Assembly (NCBI GenBank): GCA_024277935.1
Contig: JAJRUF010000197.1
Coordinates: 1 to 37,222 of the forward strand
Direction: 5' to 3'
Source of the DNA: Gammaproteobacteria bacterium
Lineage (GTDB): Bacteria; Pseudomonadota; Gammaproteobacteria; Methylococcales; Methylomonadaceae
Length of the DNA stretch: 37,222 nucleotides
The first letter of the stretch is position 1. Each line of letters starts with the position of its first letter. The notes under the pieces are model-generated. The model did not search any database and was not told the DNA's origin. It was given only the letters and a program-made list of their open reading frames with translations. Of the stretch, positions 3,120-33,150 are shown piece by piece. A program made the translations under genes and the position numbers.

Positions 3120-3285
3120 TTAGGAACGTATATGAAACAACTTCCCGATTTCTAACTTGTCTTTTTGCTCCAGATGGAACGGCCTCATTCGTTGCGTAGC
3201 CAGCTATGCGCCCCATGAAATCATTCCATCTGAAACAAAAGTCCTACTTTATATTTTCGGGAAGTTATTCCATGCACGATCCTTA
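3120..3285. repeat. Large dispersed palindrome, copy A
   Basis: A roughly 165-bp near-perfect palindrome runs from TTAGGAACG at the left to CGATCCTTAA at the right. The arms contain ACAACTTCCCGA matched with TCGGGAAGTTATT, and CAGATGGAA (3171-3179) matched with TTCCATCTG (3224-3232). The centre is GTTGCGTAGC-CAGCTATGCG-CC (3191-3212). The same element, with matching changes in both arms, occurs at 8818-8983. It lies in the gene-free gap between the convergent genes darP and dinB. Confidence 0.85.
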
Positions 3286-3310
3286 ATGCACGCATAACCA
3301 TTATTTTTAA

Positions 3311-3428
3311 CCACGAAGTACACAGAGAGCACAGAGAGCACAGAGAAGAGCAAGGTGAAATTATTCACTACCTTTCAATAATCGCTCTTGCTCATTAAAA
3401 TCTCAGTGTTCTCTGTGTACTCCGGTGG
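3311..3428. repeat. Second palindromic repeat in the darP-dinB gap
   Basis: CCACGAAGTACACAGAGA at the left is matched by TCTCTGTGTACT and CGGTGG at the right (perfect core AGTACACAGAGA 3317-3328 with 3410-3421). The left arm carries a tandem AGAGAGCAC duplication. Sequences of the type 'CCACGAAGTACACAGAG' are, from general knowledge, common dispersed repeats in several bacterial groups. The remainder of this gap (3286-3310 and 3429-3549) holds no gene that I can see. Confidence 0.6.
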
Positions 3429-3549
3429 CTAAACAGTTCTTACAAAAATGCTATATCCATTATTTATGGCTATGTATACGTTAGGTGTTAACACCTTTAT
3501 AAATTATCAACACTTAATGCCGACATAAGCTAAAAAAGGCTTATGATCA

Positions 3550-4638
3550 TCAATAATTTTCAAACAAATCCAGTTGCCTATAATTTAATAATTGATCTTG
3601 ATTATTAAATGATGACAAGGCAACACCTAATAGACGTACCTTGCGTTGCCCAACATCTGTTTTGCTTAATAAGGTTTCAAATATGGCAGCACTATTGATT
3701 GTGCTGGTGATTATATTAGGCAATGTTCTACTTCGTGTTATTTGCACAAAATCATGATATTTGACTTTTATGGTGAGTGTTTGGGCTTCTAGCTCTTTTT
3801 CCTTAAGTTTTATTAGCGCTTTTTCTAATAATAACTGCAAGTGCTTTAAAATTTCTATACGCTCTTGAATATCAAATTGAAAGGTTGTTTCAACCCCCAC
3901 TGACTTGCTTTCTTTATGATTATTAACAGCCCTTAAATCAATAGCTCTTGAGATATTATAATAATGTTGCCCTATCTTGCCAAAGTTCTGAGTTAAAAAA
4001 ACCAGTGACTGTTGCTTTAAATCTCCCCCTGTTTTTATACCTAAGGCATGCATTTTCTTTTCTGTTGCTTTACCAATACCATGAAACTTCCCAATGGCTA
4101 ATCCTTCGACAAATTGTTCGCCTTGCTCAGGGGTTATTAAATACAAGCCATCAGGCTTGTCCATATCGGATGCAATTTTAGCCAGAAATTTATTGTAAGA
4201 TATACCGGCTGAAGCAACTAAACCTGTTTCAGTTAAAATAGATTGTTTTATCGCTTTAGCAATTAATGTTGCAGAACCGTGGTGAGAAGGGTTTTGACTT
4301 ACATCTAAATAGGCTTCATCTAGTGACAAAGGCTCATACAGCTTAGATACTTTGGAAAAGATTTGTCGAATAATGCTGGATGCTTCTTTATAAGCATCGA
4401 ATCGCGGTTTTACAAAAATGGCTTGTGGGCATAGGCGATAAGCTTGTGAGGATGACATCGCTGAGTGGATTCCAAATTTTCTGGCTTCATAGCTACACGT
4501 CGCAACAACGCCTCGGCTATCTGGCTTTCCACCTACAATTATAGGTTTATTTTGATACTCAGGATGGTCGCGTTGTTCAACGGCAGCAAAAAAAGCATCC
4601 ATATCTATATGAATGATTTTTCTACCTTGCGTTGGCAT
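3550..4638 (-). CDS. dinB: DNA polymerase IV (Y-family translesion polymerase)
   Basis: The product is 362 aa, a Y-family polymerase that copies past damaged bases. The palm carries the catalytic acids: Asp12 in IHIDMDAFFAAVEQRD and Asp107/Glu108 in SLDEAYLDV. The helix-hairpin-helix region is visible in IGKFHGIGKATEKKMHALGI. The little-finger domain fills the C-terminal part. The tail ends with QLDLF (residues 355-359), a typical beta-clamp binding motif. Length is normal. The start lies 4 bp after the stop of the DUF4389 gene, so the two form an operon. No LexA box was recognised upstream, so SOS control is not shown. Confidence 0.95.
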   Translation of the reverse strand: MPTQGRKIIHIDMDAFFAAVEQRDHPEYQNKPIIVGGKPDSRGVVATCSYEARKFGIHSAMSSSQAYRLCPQAIFVKPRFDAYKEASSIIRQIFSKVSKLYEPLSLDEAYLDVSQNPSHHGSATLIAKAIKQSILTETGLVASAGISYNKFLAKIASDMDKPDGLYLITPEQGEQFVEGLAIGKFHGIGKATEKKMHALGIKTGGDLKQQSLVFLTQNFGKIGQHYYNISRAIDLRAVNNHKESKSVGVETTFQFDIQERIEILKHLQLLLEKALIKLKEKELEAQTLTIKVKYHDFVQITRSRTLPNIITSTINSAAIFETLLSKTDVGQRKVRLLGVALSSFNNQDQLLNYRQLDLFENY

Positions 4639-4642
4639 ATTA

Positions 4643-4948
4643 CTATTTTTTGATTTTAGGTAGGTCTAGGTCTTCAGTTAGACCCCAATCAGAAAATGGA
4701 AAAGGGACTTGATTTGTACTGTAAGTTAAAAATAATAAAATATGATACAAATAAGCTGATAACTTGCTACCAAAACTAAGAACATTTTGGTTAGCCCCCC
4801 CCGTTATTAAGGCAGATCCAACTTGTAAAACTATTATGGTCCATAATAATATACGAACCAAGCTGACGATAACGGCAAGAATCAGCATAAAGAAAATACG
4901 TTTCCAGGTGCTAATTTTTTTTATATTGTCATTTATTTCTTGTTGCAT
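4643..4948 (-). CDS. DUF4389 family membrane protein
   Basis: The product is 101 aa. The sequence matches the pattern of DUF4389 proteins: a basic N-terminal stretch (TWKRIFFMLILAVIVSLVRI), a second hydrophobic segment ending in ITGG, then the NVLSFGSKLSAYLYHILLFL block and a PFPF...W end. Two to three membrane helices are expected (about residues 17-45 and 63-78). The function of the family is unknown. It lies 4 bp upstream of dinB, so the polymerase is probably expressed from the same transcript. The same association is worth checking in related genomes. Confidence 0.8.
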   Translation of the reverse strand: MQQEINDNIKKISTWKRIFFMLILAVIVSLVRILLWTIIVLQVGSALITGGANQNVLSFGSKLSAYLYHILLFLTYSTNQVPFPFSDWGLTEDLDLPKIKK

Positions 4949-4988
4949 AATAAAAAAACCTCTTAAATAACAAAATTATAAGCCTTTG

Positions 4989-5040
4989 ATGGCATCTTTC
5001 AGTTTAGCTGATGCGCTTCGTTCCTCAGCACATCCTACAA
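4989..5040 (-). repeat. Dispersed repeat, internally deleted copy
   Basis: Read on the minus strand, this runs from TTGTAGGATGTGCTGAGGAA through GCGCATCAGCTAAACT into GAAAGATGCCAT. The copy at 33036-33150 has the same two ends, but with 63 extra bases between two AAACT direct repeats. Thus this copy looks like a deletion product between those AAACT repeats. Confidence 0.7.
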
Positions 5041-5175
5041 GGATATGCTTATTTTCTCACACTAAAAGTGTAAGCTACTTTTAGGTTAAAATGAAAGAAG
5101 CCTCTTTAATTTTTGTTATTCTCTGATTGATCGACGAGAGCGGCCTCATTCGCTACTTAGTTTAAGCAAAGCAAG

Positions 5176-6213
5176 TTAGCCTTTATTCATTAAATCACGT
5201 AAATCAAGCGCGGAGGCGTTTGCTCTTGCAATATAGTTAGCCATAGTAAGTGAGTAGTTGGCAGTTACACCAAAACCATCGCCATTTAATATCATTGGGC
5301 TAAGAACAGGTGTTATAGCATTTTCTAAAGCACGAATCATATTGTCTAATGTATTCATTGCCCTTTTATCTAAAATAATATCTTCAAAGTCAATTTTTAT
5401 TGCTTTTAAAATATGCATTAACCCCCAACTAGCTCCGCGTGCTTCATAAAAAACATCGTCAATTAATAACCAAGGGGTTCTGCCTGCCCCCTTTGTAAAT
5501 TCAGCAACATTTTGTGGTGCATTTTTTCCACTCGGGTCATAAAGTATGCCAGCAGCACCAGCAAACCTGTCGGTACTTGCCGTTAATTTTGTGGACAAGC
5601 CGCCCAAACGTTTAATAATCACCTCTAAATAAGTCCATAAGTTATCAGAACGAGAATAAAACTGCCCACGCCTTTCACCATCTTGAGGGTTTTGTAACCG
5701 TTTCATATATCTATGTAGATACTTAACCCCTTTTTCATACTCTGACTCTGTCGAGGGAAGAGCCCATGAGTTAGGTTCGTAGTAAAAATAAGGCTCTGCA
5801 ACACCAAGGTCGACATCTTCTACAGATTGTGACTGGTCTCTGGCAAAGTGATTCCTTAAGGCAGTGGCTCCATCACGAAGCATCACTAAAGCACCATACT
5901 CCCAGTTTCGGATATTATCTAAAAACACCCCAGGTGGTGCGACATCATTTGAGATATAGCCTCCAGGTTTTTCCATTAATACCTCAGCCATATGAGCTAA
6001 TGTATTGGTATAAACAAAACCAATAGGCATATTGGTAGAGCCGCTCTGCTCCATATATTCAATGGCTTTTTCCCTTACATCAAAAGGCTCCGGCTCATCT
6101 CCCCACCAAAAACCAAGAATTGTTAGGATAATAAGAGTTACCCCTAGTAATGATCCAAAAAACCAAAGTATCCCTTTTGATCTGGCATCTTCTGTGGCTG
6201 CACTATCTGTCAT
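5176..6213 (-). CDS. DUF2333 family membrane-anchored protein
   Basis: The product is 345 aa and follows the DUF2333 pattern. There is one N-terminal membrane helix (about residues 14-36), then a large exported domain beginning DEPEPFDVREKA. Conserved-looking blocks are GGYISNDVAPPGVFLDN, WEYGALVMLRDGATALRNHF, and SRSDNLWTYLEVI. The function of this family is unknown. It probably faces the periplasm with a short cytoplasmic tail. It lies 71 bp downstream of xerC on the same strand and may be the last gene of that operon. No clear T-run terminator follows. Confidence 0.85.
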   Translation of the reverse strand: MTDSAATEDARSKGILWFFGSLLGVTLIILTILGFWWGDEPEPFDVREKAIEYMEQSGSTNMPIGFVYTNTLAHMAEVLMEKPGGYISNDVAPPGVFLDNIRNWEYGALVMLRDGATALRNHFARDQSQSVEDVDLGVAEPYFYYEPNSWALPSTESEYEKGVKYLHRYMKRLQNPQDGERRGQFYSRSDNLWTYLEVIIKRLGGLSTKLTASTDRFAGAAGILYDPSGKNAPQNVAEFTKGAGRTPWLLIDDVFYEARGASWGLMHILKAIKIDFEDIILDKRAMNTLDNMIRALENAITPVLSPMILNGDGFGVTANYSLTMANYIARANASALDLRDLMNKG

Positions 6214-6284
6214 TTTTGTGTGGTCCCAAGTAACGTGAGTATAAATATATTTCTGCTGGAAAATATCTGCAATAATAACAGGTT

Positions 6285-7190
6285 TTAGACTTTATCTAGC
6301 TTCTTTTTTGCTCTAGGATGTGCTTTATCGTAAACTTCGGCTAAATGTTGAAAGTCTAAATGCGTATAAATTTGCGTGGTGCTTAGGTTACTATGTCCTA
6401 ACAGCTCTTGCACGGCTCGGATATCATGGCTTGATTCAAGCAAATGACTGGCAAAAGAGTGCCTAAGCATATGTGGATGAACATGCTCAGGCAACCCAAT
6501 TTTCTTACACCATCTATCTAATCTAAGTTGGATACTGCGCTGCCCTAAACGTTTGCCTTTATTTGAAATAAAAACAGCCGAATCTAGTGTTTCTGTACGG
6601 CATTTTAACCATTTTTCTAAAGCAGAAATAGCTTTGCTTCCTACAGGTAAGTTTCGTTGCTTATCTCCCTTCCCCTTTAATACCCGTAACTCTCGATCAG
6701 CAAGGTCTATATCATCCATATTTAAAGCAGAAAGTTCACTTAACCTGAGGCCGGATGAGTAAAAAAGTTCAAACATGGCTAAATCACGTATTTCTAAAAT
6801 TGAATCAGGACTACTTCCTAAGATGCCCGACATTTGGTCAACATCAAGCACCTTGGGTAACTTTTTTTCTTGCTTAGGGGCTTTAATATGTCGAGCAGGG
6901 TTATTTTGAAGGTGTTGATTTTTTATTAGATAGTTATAAAAACTGCGGATGGCTGAAAGTTCACGCTGTAAAGATTTGCTAGCAATACCTTTTCTATGTC
7001 GGCCTGCTATATGGTTTCTTATATCAGCTGTTTGAATATCTTGCCACTGTTGAGTTTTTTCAGCGACACAATAGTTTAATAAATATTTAATATCACGCTG
7101 ATAGCTTTTTAATGTATGTTCAGAAACTCTTTTTTCAAACTCTAAATACTGAAAGTAATTGGCTAGTAGTATTTTTTCAGAAGGAAACAT
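6285..7190 (-). CDS. xerC: Tyrosine recombinase XerC
   Basis: The product is 301 aa. It is the tyrosine recombinase that, with XerD, resolves chromosome dimers at dif at the septum. The N-terminal core-binding domain spans about residues 1-100. The catalytic set is complete: Arg149 in SSGLRLSE, a lysine in GKGDKQR (about 174), His240 and Arg243 in HPHMLRHSFASH, His266 in LLGHSNLS, and nucleophile Tyr275 in TQIYTHL. Length is normal. It follows the DUF484 gene after 21 bp, the same order as in Pseudomonas. It is a chromosomal XerC, not an integron integrase. Confidence 0.95.
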   Translation of the reverse strand: MFPSEKILLANYFQYLEFEKRVSEHTLKSYQRDIKYLLNYCVAEKTQQWQDIQTADIRNHIAGRHRKGIASKSLQRELSAIRSFYNYLIKNQHLQNNPARHIKAPKQEKKLPKVLDVDQMSGILGSSPDSILEIRDLAMFELFYSSGLRLSELSALNMDDIDLADRELRVLKGKGDKQRNLPVGSKAISALEKWLKCRTETLDSAVFISNKGKRLGQRSIQLRLDRWCKKIGLPEHVHPHMLRHSFASHLLESSHDIRAVQELLGHSNLSTTQIYTHLDFQHLAEVYDKAHPRAKKKLDKV

Positions 7191-7211
7191 AAGTAAGGTT
7201 ACGCCTAGCTA

Positions 7212-7907
7212 TTATGTTTCATCCAAAAGCCCAATCAATCTTGTCGCAATAACCTCGCTCATTTGGGTTAGAAACAAGTCCCCCATGTTGTAGTGAAACC
7301 GAGCATCTTCTTTACTTCCTATGGCAATAATGCCTTCCAGTTGAGTATAAGCCATTGGAATAATGGCACACGATTTTATTTCAGTGGCAACATCTCCAAA
7401 CAAAAATTTGGCTTGCGCTAAAGTAGGTCGGCCACACTTTGGCTGGTTACTACTTAATATTTGTATAAAATGTTGCAAGTGCTCATCATCAATATTTACA
7501 AAGATATTGCTATTAAAAGTCTCGGCATCTTGTTTGATAATACGAACAGCTGAAAAGTCAGTTAAAAAACATTCTTTAAAGACCTTATCAAGGTTTACCA
7601 ACACATTTTCAATAGAATCTGCCTCCATCAAAGCTAATGTCAATTCATGCATCTGACTCAGCGTAATATCATTATCTTTAGCAATTTCAATCAAAGCAGT
7701 CAATTGATTTTCTAGCTCTTTATGTTTGCTTCTAAAAATTTCTAGCTGCTTAGATATTAAAGAAACAGCATTGCCACTAGGGTGGGGAATACTCATATTT
7801 TCTAACAAGGCTAAATGTTGGTGAAAAAATTCCGGGTGTGACTGCAAGTAATCTTCAACTTGAGCTGGCGTTAGTTCATTTTGCTTAATAATTTTTTCAG
7901 CACTCAT
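7212..7907 (-). CDS. DUF484 family protein (GAF-like)
   Basis: The product is 231 aa. The opening part, LTPAQVEDYLQSHPEFFHQH, followed by IPHPSGNAVSLISKQLEIFR, is typical of DUF484. A coiled-coil linker (about residues 50-80) leads to a GAF-like C-terminal domain with AIIPMAYTQLEGIIAIGS. The function is unknown. The gene sits between dapF and xerC in many gammaproteobacteria. Its ATG overlaps the dapF stop by 4 bp, which implies translational coupling. Confidence 0.9.
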   Translation of the reverse strand: MSAEKIIKQNELTPAQVEDYLQSHPEFFHQHLALLENMSIPHPSGNAVSLISKQLEIFRSKHKELENQLTALIEIAKDNDITLSQMHELTLALMEADSIENVLVNLDKVFKECFLTDFSAVRIIKQDAETFNSNIFVNIDDEHLQHFIQILSSNQPKCGRPTLAQAKFLFGDVATEIKSCAIIPMAYTQLEGIIAIGSKEDARFHYNMGDLFLTQMSEVIATRLIGLLDET

Positions 7908-8734
7908 AATTCAATTTGTCCTTCAAAAACCGAGGTGGCCGGTCCTTTCATAAAAACAGCATGCCCGCGCCCTGCCCAGTTTATTTCTAGTTGTCCACCT
8001 GGTAGCTCAACAGTGATATTATTTTGATCTAGCAGGTTTTGTTCTACCCCAATAACCACAGCCGCACATGCACCACTACCACAGGCTAATGTTTCAGTAG
8101 CTCCACGCTCATAAACGCGTAATTTTATATGCTGCCGATTTATAATTTGCATAAAACCAATATTAGCTCTTTCTGGAAAAAAAACATGACTTTCTAATGC
8201 GCTCCCTATTTTAACGACAGGTTCGGTATTAATATCTTTAACTATTATAACGGCATGGGGGTTTCCCATAGAAACTGCGCCAAACTCTATTTCAGTATGG
8301 TTGACTAATAGTTTATAAGATATAGCTTGCTGTTTTGTATCTATTGGTATTTCTTTGGGCAAGTGTCTGGGAATGCCCATATTGACAGTAATTAAATCAG
8401 CTTTATCAAAAGTGAGAGTTAACTGGCCTGAATCAGTATCTACGGTGATTTTATCCTTTGTCGTTAATTTTTTGTCACGGACAAAGCGCGCAAAACAACG
8501 TGCGCCATTACCACATTGTGCAACTTCACTGCCATCGGCATTGAAAATACGGTATTTAAAATCAGCATTGCTACTGACCGGCTTTTCAACCAGTAGTAGT
8601 TGGTCACAACCTATACCAAAGTGTCTATCCGCCATAAATTTAATTTGGCTAGATGTTAATGAAATATTTTGCTTGATAGCGTCAATAACAACAAAGTCGT
8701 TACCTAAGCCATGCATTTTAGTGAATTTAATCAT
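7904..8734 (-). CDS. dapF: Diaminopimelate epimerase
   Basis: The product is 276 aa. It converts LL- to meso-diaminopimelate, the substrate of LysA and a building block of peptidoglycan. Both catalytic cysteines are present: Cys74 in QCGNGARC and Cys218 in ACGSGACAA. The N-terminus MIKFTKMHGLGNDFVV is typical, and the length is standard. The gene is downstream of lysA on the same strand, but 245 bp away, with a large palindrome in between. It overlaps the DUF484 gene by 4 bp. Confidence 0.96.
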   Translation of the reverse strand: MIKFTKMHGLGNDFVVIDAIKQNISLTSSQIKFMADRHFGIGCDQLLLVEKPVSSNADFKYRIFNADGSEVAQCGNGARCFARFVRDKKLTTKDKITVDTDSGQLTLTFDKADLITVNMGIPRHLPKEIPIDTKQQAISYKLLVNHTEIEFGAVSMGNPHAVIIVKDINTEPVVKIGSALESHVFFPERANIGFMQIINRQHIKLRVYERGATETLACGSGACAAVVIGVEQNLLDQNNITVELPGGQLEINWAGRGHAVFMKGPATSVFEGQIEL

Positions 8735-8817
8735 GCAGGTTTGTACTTAAATTTAATAGACGTAAGAGGTATAGCCTTGATGCAGAAAATCAGAGTCAAG
8801 ACTACATCCGCTGATAT

Positions 8818-8983
8818 TAAGGAACGTGCATGAAACAACTTACCGATTTCTAACTTGTCTTTTTGCTCCAGGTGAAATGCTCTCATTCGTTGCGTAGCCA
8901 GCTATGCGCCTCATGAGATCATTTCACCTGAAACAAAAATCCTACGTTATAATTTCGGGAAGTTATTCCATACACGCTCCTAA
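8818..8983. repeat. Large dispersed palindrome, copy B
   Basis: This is the same element as at 3120-3285. Left end AAGGAACGTGCATGAAACAA, centre GTTGCGTAGC-CAGCTATGCG-CC at 8889-8910, right end ATACACGCTCCTAAGG. The lysA stop codon (8980-8982) lies in its right tip. The arm CAGGTGAAA (8869-8877) pairs perfectly with TTTCACCTG (8922-8930), although both differ from copy A by two compensating changes. It occupies the lysA-dapF interval and would be transcribed as a very long hairpin if the two genes share a transcript. Confidence 0.85.
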
Positions 8984-13990: not shown

Positions 13991-14154
13991 TATACTTCGC
14001 GCAGTCACGGATGCGGAATTTATAAGCTGCTGATTTTTGTCGATAGCAAGGCGATGAAACAGGCGCATAGCAAGCTACGCAACTGTTTCAGCAACGCAGC
14101 TATCGGCAAAAATTCAGTGCTTAGAAATCCGCAGTCATGACCGCGCGAAGTATA
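13991..14154. repeat. Large palindrome in the 3' end of the atp transcript
   Basis: TATACTTCGCG (13991-14001) pairs with CGCGAAGTATA (14144-14154). Further arms GGATGCGGAATTT and AAATCCGCAGTCA, and ATTTTTGTCGATAGC and GCTATCGGCAAAAAT, pair inwards. The centre at 14062-14083 (GGCGCATAGC-AAGCTACGCA-AC) is, reversed, 20/22 identical to the centre of the palindromes at 3120 and 8818. It is thus a divergent member of the same superfamily, located between atpC and the terminator. Confidence 0.8.
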
Positions 14155-28682: not shown

Positions 28683-29345
28683 TTAAATTCGGCAGTTCTT
28701 CATATAAAAGGGTAGCAAACCAGAGATAAATAAAAATATTGAAGGGGGAATTGGCGTTGAAATAGTCGCAACATCACCACTCCGAACTGCCCATTCCGAA
28801 GCCAGAACAATTTGCCGGTTTACTAAAACTTGCTCATTACTATCGACAAGGTACATTAAAACACCATTGTTACTAAAAACACCATGAGCAGGGTCAGCTA
28901 ATTGTTGGCTAGCGGCCCAAAAGACTTGGCCAGTAATATTATTAAAAATACTGGTATCATTATCTCTGAATAGGTTGGCTAACTCCCCATCCACATTTGT
29001 GCCTGTAAGCTCTGCAAGTACTGCTTCTATTGTTGTTGTGCCCGTTATTGTACTAACTGTTGTGGGCCGCCTCCAATCACTATAACCCAAATAGTTTATG
29101 CCTCTTAAATTATAAAGCACTGCTGGATCACCAAAATTACTTCTACCATTTGGAGCTAAAGTAATGGTAGCTGTTTTACCTATATCTCCGGGATGGTCGC
29201 GAGCTGCTTCAATTGCAGCCAATGGGTCTTGAACCCAGGTTAGATTTTGGCTTGAATCATAAATTAACCCATTGCCTCTATTTATTAAATTTGCGTAGGG
29301 TTGAGACGCATATAGTAGGCATAAAAATAAAATGGTACTTTTCAT
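28683..29345 (-). CDS. Second secreted Lcl-type protein with VPLPA/PEP-CTERM-like tail
   Basis: The product is 220 aa from the ATG at 29345, which follows AAAAGGAAACC; a longer frame reaching 29405 would put 20 residues before the signal peptide. Residues 1-19 form the signal peptide. The body is clearly paralogous to the protein at 531-1208: both share LINRGNGLIYDS, QNLTWVQDPLAA, RSNFGDPAVL, GYSDWRRP, LADPA, FSNNGV and SEWAVRSGDVA. The C-terminus STPIPPSIFLFISGLLPFYM ends in a short basic stretch (KNCRI). It is thus a secreted, probably sorted surface protein of unknown function. It stands alone on the minus strand between parB and a diguanylate cyclase. Confidence 0.75.
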   Translation of the reverse strand: MKSTILFLCLLYASQPYANLINRGNGLIYDSSQNLTWVQDPLAAIEAARDHPGDIGKTATITLAPNGRSNFGDPAVLYNLRGINYLGYSDWRRPTTVSTITGTTTIEAVLAELTGTNVDGELANLFRDNDTSIFNNITGQVFWAASQQLADPAHGVFSNNGVLMYLVDSNEQVLVNRQIVLASEWAVRSGDVATISTPIPPSIFLFISGLLPFYMKNCRI

Positions 29346-29376
29346 TATGGTTTCCTTTTCTTTTTTAAAAGAATGC

Positions 29377-29393
29377 GTGGAAAATAATACCAC
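29377..29393 (-). promoter_or_regulatory. Operator-like 17-mer upstream of the second Lcl-type gene
   Basis: On the minus strand this reads GTGGTATTATTTTCCAC, followed by GCAT. It is 16 of 17 identical to the sequence at 476-492 before the paralogue. It ends 31 bp before the ATG, close to the 38 bp of the other copy. Confidence 0.45.
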
Positions 29394-29547
29394 AAAAATA
29401 TTCATACCTCAACTCGCCTAAACCCTGTCTATTTCGATACATATTTCAGAGATAGATGAATATTTCATCTTTTTTTCTAAGAATATTGACGAAAGTTATT
29501 AACTAACCTATCTTTAAGTATCCCGTTTAGTTTTATTTTATAAATCT

Positions 29548-33035: not shown

Positions 33036-33150
33036 TTGTAGGATGTGCTGAGGAACGAAGCGCATCTGCTAAACTTCGTTTGATGTGCCTCCTAACGTCG
33101 GCACACCCTACAAAAACATCAAGACAACAGTGTAAACTGAAAGATGCCAT
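33036..33150 (+). repeat. Dispersed repeat, full copy with palindrome
   Basis: TTGTAGGATGTGCTGA at the left pairs with TCGGCACACCCTACAA at the right (33036-33113). The unit continues with an AAACT direct repeat (33071-33075 and 33134-33138) and ends in AAACTGAAAGATGCCAT. A shortened copy without the part between the AAACT repeats lies at 4989-5040. It fills most of the gap between dsbA and cytochrome c4; the rest of 32841-33210 shows no gene. Confidence 0.7.

Follow-up and report, generated by a model that had tools for sequence, protein, structure and literature searches.

Two palindromes in a Methylomonadaceae contig are miniature transposable elements with a conserved, strand-specific and probably RNA-like fold

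What are the two nearly identical palindromes of contig JAJRUF010000197.1, and what keeps their arms complementary? The contig belongs to a gammaproteobacterium of the Methylomonadaceae (assembly GCA_024277935.1), and the stretch analysed here, termed the window, covers its positions 1 to 37,222. An initial annotation had placed the copies at 3120-3285 and 8818-8983, had noticed two base pairs in which both partners differ between the copies, and had proposed either a maintained fold or conversion of one arm by the other. We find that the palindromes are miniature inverted-repeat transposable elements (MITEs). We consider it probable that they are ISAzo13-type MITEs carrying a conserved strand-specific fold, likely an RNA hairpin that serves the element itself.

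Both locations are borne out, each containing a 160-bp element between 3-bp direct repeats. Copy A occupies 3123-3282, with TTA at 3120-3122 and 3283-3285, and copy B occupies 8821-8980, with TAA at 8818-8820 and 8981-8983. In both, the sense strand of the structured core described below is the minus strand. The terminal inverted repeats of copy A are found at 3123-3147 (plus strand, GGAACGTATATGAAACAACTTCCCG) and 3258-3282 (minus strand, read there as GGATCGTGCATGGAATAACTTCCCG), and those of copy B, with the 25-bp end pattern, at 8821-8845 (plus) and 8956-8980 (minus). A repeat search of the window gave 90% identity between the copies across 162 nt. Their fold energies are -51.5 and -58.9 kcal/mol, with z values of -6.65 and -7.28, and none of 200 shuffles folded as well. 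There are 17 differences between the copies. Four of these form the two compensated pairs noticed earlier, which are real and lie at element positions 52/107 and 55/104. Two more fall in pair 9/152, which is T.G in copy A and C.A in copy B, and the other 11 are one-sided, uncompensated changes. With so many one-sided changes the two copies alone are insufficient for a claim of covariation, which was upheld only across the family and the phylum.

The palindromes are MITEs in that they are short, multicopy, bounded by terminal inverted repeats and by target repeats of fixed length, and without a transposase gene. A DNA search with copy A gave at least 56 matches in the source genome, with 40 of 65 first-look candidates scored and with reverse-strand rows and fragments counted. 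The same query matched 6 of 61 genomes (the source and 60 relatives), all of one genus, which makes the copy family a narrow one. The 25-bp end pattern, allowing up to three mismatches, occurs 31+34 times in the source genome and 97+99 times in a congener (G003); it was absent from five of eight congeners, and the reversed-pattern control gave 0 matches. Among all fetched loci, 170 elements of 40-260 bp have paired ends. Perfect 3-bp direct repeats flank 135 of them, and 129 of these 135 repeats are TTA or TAA. Plasmids gave no match to copy A, plasmids and phages none to locus L217, and a pattern scan of viral contigs gave 0.

The insertion point of copy B is the stop codon of lysA, a gene on the minus strand. 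With copy B in place this stop is TAG, completed by the last base of the element; at the empty site it would read TAA. The site was inspected by eye in eight congeners. No such element precedes lysA in G003, G005, G007 and G008, and G005 has another inverted repeat. A different core-bearing MITE is present at the same TAA in G001 (L281), before the lysA stop and with ends GGTATAACG.../GCTAACGTGC..., while G002 stops in an end resembling that of a MITE, and other sequence occupies the site in G004 and G006. Copy A is flanked by convergent genes. An imperfect palindrome, accacgaagtacacagagagcacagag...ctctgtgtactccggtggc, follows it at about 3309-3432, and similar sequence is seen next to a partial copy in L030.

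The apex is present in 76 end-paired elements that are 155-161 bp long. Of these, 63 are exactly 160 bp, and pair counts within the family use the 62 distinct ones. Pairs 52/107, 55/104 and 57/102 each show at least two kinds of Watson-Crick pair. In the plus orientation 52/107 is A.C in 26 of 62 elements, which is G.U on strand B (the minus strand for both window copies), and some pairs near the loop hold unpaired letters. Mismatches spread freely in the stems, which the initial annotation would have read against a maintained fold, are thus in part present locally, at 52/107 and in the one-sided changes between copies A and B.

The inner 85-90 nt are also found in MITEs with other ends, hence this part was matched alone in the first search. 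A first alignment of 16 representatives, for which a 29-pair structure was written down and then counted, has 92.0% of its cells paired (77.7% in shuffled alignments) and a covariation of 0.430 vs 0.172 (0 of 500 shuffles), with 40.3-50.6% pairing for slid partners. The model R1, run on both strands of 68 loci, gave 141 matches at E<=0.01. It places the core at 3156-3244 in copy A (minus strand, 70.9 bits; 28.9 on the opposite strand) and at 8854-8942 in copy B (minus strand, 88.4 bits; 41.1 on the opposite strand), and elsewhere too it matches the opposite strand at lower scores. Alignment A3 takes 73 matches (71 distinct rows) from 61 of the 68 loci at E<=1.5e-7, with L044, L118, L138, L147, L150, L166 and L185 excluded. 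This alignment, fitted to R1, which favours it, and with rows picked on strand B, is 92.1% paired, with covariation of 0.539 against 0.194 after shuffling (0 of 500) and 39.3-48.2% for slid partners. Over these 71 rows both sides change in 24 of the 29 pairs. The outer P0 stem varies jointly as well, with TAAC/GTTA, TTGC/GCAA, TGGC/GCCA and TGAC/GTCA among 68 rows. Mostly fixed on strand B are the apex GGCGCATAGC-nn-GCTAYGYAAC and the tracts GGATTTTTG and CAAAAAGACAAG, and a tandem G.A (GAGGC/AACGA) is possible in one large subgroup. Stems change jointly while loop letters stay, and the fold is maintained by compensatory change.

The earlier impression that no named family covers the element agrees with Rfam, which gave 0 matches in the window at gathering score and only sub-threshold matches in the 401 bases and five loci scanned. 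Matches to mir-2807 (31.4 and 30.3 bits, cut-off 54) were read as a coincidental resemblance to a long hairpin. A resemblance between the apex and Xer dif half-sites was considered and dropped because the spacing differs and insertion is at TTA/TAA. The motif CATGGATG...GGTAGnnCAATGCnGGAGC was dropped as a second domain, with 6 of its 9 matches outside such MITEs. It was seen at L046, L074, L085, L098, L152, L180 and L210, mostly alone, and inside some core MITEs (L152, L180 and, weaker, L147).

The fold also has a strand. On strand B, A3 contains 178 G.U and 68 A.C cells, or 178 vs 25 without one pair that holds 43 A.C. After clustering of the cores at 80% identity, G.U exceeds A.C in 14 clusters, with one reverse and one tie (p 0.001, one pair left out); at 75% identity the count is 10 vs 1 (p 0.012). 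For the arms beyond the core, which were paired independently of the model, 14 clusters have more G.U, 2 show the reverse and 5 are ties (21 clusters, 66 elements, p 0.004), in a test that is independent of the A3 fit and uses the strand-B orientation, with clusters that are not a tree. By RNA folding, strand B is the stabler one for 63 of the 71 elements and, counted by cluster, for 20 of 25 (p 0.004). Both strands fold in a DNA cruciform, so correction at the DNA level predicts no strand bias. The preference for G.U extends over the entire hairpin, which makes RNA the most probable form. From these patterns in the sequences we infer that the conserved thing is the single-stranded fold of strand B, most likely as RNA.

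As for the source of mobility, the closest known system is the ISAzo13 family (NF033519, PF07592), which shares with the MITEs similar ends and the same 3-bp TTA/TAA repeats. ISAzo13 elements generate 3-bp repeats (ISfinder), and such repeats were also observed directly here. In a methanotroph symbiont of Bathymodiolus japonicus, L077 contains at 6145-7759 a 1615-bp insertion sequence with MITE-like ends and a TTA repeat. Its transposase is in two pieces, which match PF07592 (1.2e-24 and 1.3e-71) and NF033519 ISAzo13 (165.8 and 270.5 bits against a cut-off of 200); the first of them also matches IS630 at 30 bits, below the cut-off of 100. Around 6820-7110 of L077 the transposase is broken by about 290 bp that do not resemble transposase. 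A genome of the same family, G882, has 54 PF07592 matches, 12 of them in 351-aa frames. Among 18 ISAzo13 loci scanned, a 1340-bp element with TTA/TAA repeats was found at five (L307, L310, L314, L315 and L318); at L312 and L316 the ends are visible and a clean repeat is absent, and most of the remaining loci gave nothing. The right end of the G882 1340-bp element, GGAATAAGCACGAAACAACTTCCCGAT, is close to the MITE consensus end GGAACGTGCATGAAACAACTTCCCGAT. A second ISAzo13 lineage, in G857 (L294), has TTA and ends GGACTCAGGATTTAAT/GGAATGCGGATTAAAT, which resemble those of the core-bearing MITE type L043/L122.

Unlike these insertion sequences, the MITEs have no transposase gene. Conversely, the core apex was not found in the two ISAzo13 elements tested (L307 and L294, both strands, up to four mismatches), so the MITEs do not look like simple internal deletions. 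An autonomous partner was sought at unpaired ends of the source genome and a congener (up to five mismatches), and none was recognised among frames judged by eye only. Most fetched “unpaired” ends proved to be paired, in 160-bp MITEs or shortened ones of 46-124 bp, and L057, L059 and L068 retained one end only. From the long-pair list of 12 rows, L077 was pursued as an insertion sequence and 11 were taken as neighbouring MITEs without Pfam matching. Most likely, to judge from ends and target repeats, the MITEs are moved in trans by ISAzo13-family DDE transposases.

In terms of neighbouring genes, both window copies are intergenic, adjoin lysA and dapF, and do lie downstream of genes, as first described. 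This does not extend to the family. Among 82 placements, 28 are same-sense tandem, 24 antisense tandem, 17 divergent and 13 convergent, and the upstream gene runs with strand B in 41 placements and against it in 41. These placements were based on simple open frames of at least 90 aa, excluding copies inside a frame or without both neighbours, and near-symmetric apices (for example L008 and L030) were counted on both strands.

These observations may be joined in one mechanism. An ISAzo13-family DDE transposase, acting in trans, would recognise the terminal repeats, and each insertion would duplicate a target of 3 bp, TTA or TAA. Upon transcription of the element, strand B would form an RNA hairpin. 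The fold would be kept for a benefit to the element, in transposition, copy survival or host tolerance, rather than to a neighbouring gene, and the MITE would be modular, with changing ends and a constant folded core. Since no use by a neighbouring gene is visible, a use for the element itself is the one we favour.

Several observations weigh against this reading. A perfect 3-bp repeat is missing from 35 of the 170 end-paired elements. The source genome has only one, decayed, ISAzo13 transposase copy, and a PF07592 search of 16 core-bearing genomes gave matches in 7 and none in the other 9; as the transposase is often missing or decayed, the helper would frequently lie outside the assembly at hand. 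In the structure itself, pair 33/63 is open in 33 of the 71 rows and pair 40/57 in 43, and the fit of A3 to its own model counts on the same side. For 8 of the 71 elements and 5 of the 25 clusters the other strand folds better, and the G.T excess could partly stem from strand-biased mutation. No sigma-70 promoter pattern was found around copies A and B, and the terminator pattern (GC stem plus T run) gave 0 there. The lack of orientation bias belongs here too, and gives no indication of a host-gene role. Two further points, on the ends, are given with the third element below.

How widely is the core distributed? At E<=1e-4 per genome, it was found in 46 of the 151 genomes sampled from the family, spread over 15 of 29 genera, in 19 of 369 of the class sample and in 29 of 398 of the phylum sample. 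Of the last, 24 are in other classes, 16 of these from one family (f212). The three samples overlap and each counts the source genome; fewer than one chance genome is expected per search at this threshold, with model E-values that are rough. At most 28 (family), 11 (class) and 10 (phylum) candidates were scored per genome, under stricter filters, so copy numbers are lower bounds. Nine of the other-class loci were viewed, and several have MITE ends of the TTA/TAA type.

The window contains a third MITE of 160 bp, at 13993-14152 (within 13991-14154, plus strand), between glmU and atpC. It has the same core as copies A and B (14031-14117, plus strand, 73.8 bits with R1; 41.9 on the opposite strand), ends TACTTCGCGC...GCGCGAAGTA and TA repeats. 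Its end pattern, TACTTCGCGCAGTCACGGATGCGG, is unlike that of copies A and B and occurs, with up to two mismatches, 21+15 times in the source genome, 28+29 times in G008 and 23+17 times in G017. TA is present on both flanks, an IS630-type trait that was examined, but the ends themselves also read TA. Against the modular reading, no insertion sequence that might supply a TA-type transposase was recognised in 20 stretches (14 in G017, 3 in G000 and 3 in G008), of which 19 adjoin apparently unpaired ends and whose frames were listed and judged without Pfam matching.

In total, about 15 or more end types, counted by eye, surround the core, and clustering of left arms at 70% identity gave 21 clusters, three with arms of at most 10 bp. 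Also on the negative side, an AAATAA-CTT inner layout is common to many end types, with the TA type departing most. The ends may just as well have diverged from a common ancestor as have been swapped. Similar ends are present in Crenothrix, Methylobacter, Thiomargarita, Parabeggiatoa, Leucothrix, Nitrosomonas and others (at least 112 stretches; genera among the 80 listed), and the interiors between such ends are frequently quite unlike each other. At L138, L147, L150 and L185, from other Gammaproteobacteria, like ends enclose another conserved apex, GTGCAGGAATAGTCGTTCTATTTCGAGC, with changing stems, less clearly in one L185 element. This is possibly a second class of structured core.

A bolder reading, which we hold only tentatively, is that the core may be a mobile structured RNA, a strand-specific hairpin some 90-120 nt long whose internal loops are fixed and whose stems covary freely. 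It would be carried between about 15 or more end sets (TA, TTA/TAA) and spread through several classes of Pseudomonadota, with the MITE as its vehicle.

It is unlikely that these are plain MITEs with a functionless fold, whose palindrome is kept by arm-to-arm correction at the DNA level (template switching or conversion). Long palindromes self-correct, the elements are transposons, and copies with one arm changed are common in the family. Such correction, however, would erase the internal loops, and loop letters and mismatches persist across differing ends. It also leaves unexplained the excess of G.U over A.C on one strand, seen in all but one of the 15 decided core clusters and all but two of the 16 decided arm clusters. 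Arm conversion as the sole cause, one of the two options first raised for the locus, therefore fits poorly with loops that stay mismatched with fixed letters and with strand-biased wobbles.

Rather improbable, in our view, is a fold that works in single-stranded DNA, with strand B as the displaced or lagging strand, and is read by the transposase or a host protein. Strand specificity and fixed loops would fit this equally well, G.T is a well-tolerated mismatch in DNA, and random orientation to genes requires no transcription. On the other hand, the ends and TTA/TAA repeats are of the DDE-transposon kind, and DDE transposons act on double-stranded DNA. Further, with no apex found in the two ISAzo13 elements tested, their transposase seems not to need the core. 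A host regulatory RNA (3' untranslated region stabiliser, terminator or processing site) spread by transposition is very improbable, for while the hairpins are very stable, intergenic and beside lysA and dapF, and MITE-derived small RNAs are described in Coxiella in the sections available of PMC5896051, the upstream gene is as often in the opposite sense as in the same (41 vs 41), copies A and B show no terminator pattern, and occupancy of the copy-B site varies among congeners.

The reading of a MITE with an RNA-like fold that serves the element can be compared with other repeats. REP/BIME, ERIC and Correia/NEMIS elements are likewise short intergenic palindromes with many copies. Their ends, lengths and target repeats, from general knowledge of these families and not from sequence comparison, differ from those of the present MITEs. 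In Coxiella burnetii, QMITE1 and QMITE2 are MITEs of 300-400 and 150-190 bp with stable predicted hairpins, from which the small RNAs CbsR3, CbsR13 and CbsR16 derive (PMC5896051, available sections). The same sections state that QMITE1 has no orthologues in other genomes, and they give QMITE2 repeats of 7-11 nt and describe no shared core between different-ended MITEs. The hupL and dsrA MITEs of Thiomargarita nelsonii are large hairpins with many copies, with 10-bp repeats for the first and TATAG repeats for the second, neither being described with such a shared core in the portions available (PMC4853749). T. nelsonii assemblies also contain elements with GGAACGTG-type ends (L090 and L109). 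MITEs with stable transcripts are on record in the accessible parts of PMC4853749, PMC9208149, PMC12542641, PMC10969869 and PMC5896051. In the accessible parts of the open PubMed Central literature we recognised no description of a core common to different-ended MITEs, which is no proof of absence.

Other repeats were observed in the window. An inverted pair of a 40-nt repeat, at 5001-5040 and 33036-33075, is 98% complementary and resembles a short REP-type repeat. Two similar genes, at 531-1208 and 28683-29405, lie 28 kb apart and share a 102-nt stretch with 71% complementarity; the tails of their proteins are PEP-CTERM-like.

As ISAzo13-type MITEs the elements are ordinary; what is unusual is that a conserved, strand-specific fold is retained between transposon ends that differ. 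MITEs are usually viewed as decayed insertion sequences with an irrelevant interior, and here the ends differ and the interior stays. The family offers a testable case of a non-autonomous bacterial transposon with a selected RNA-like part, and the covariance model now serves to find and annotate such elements. If the bolder reading is true, an RNA passenger would aid the persistence of non-autonomous elements whatever transposase is present.

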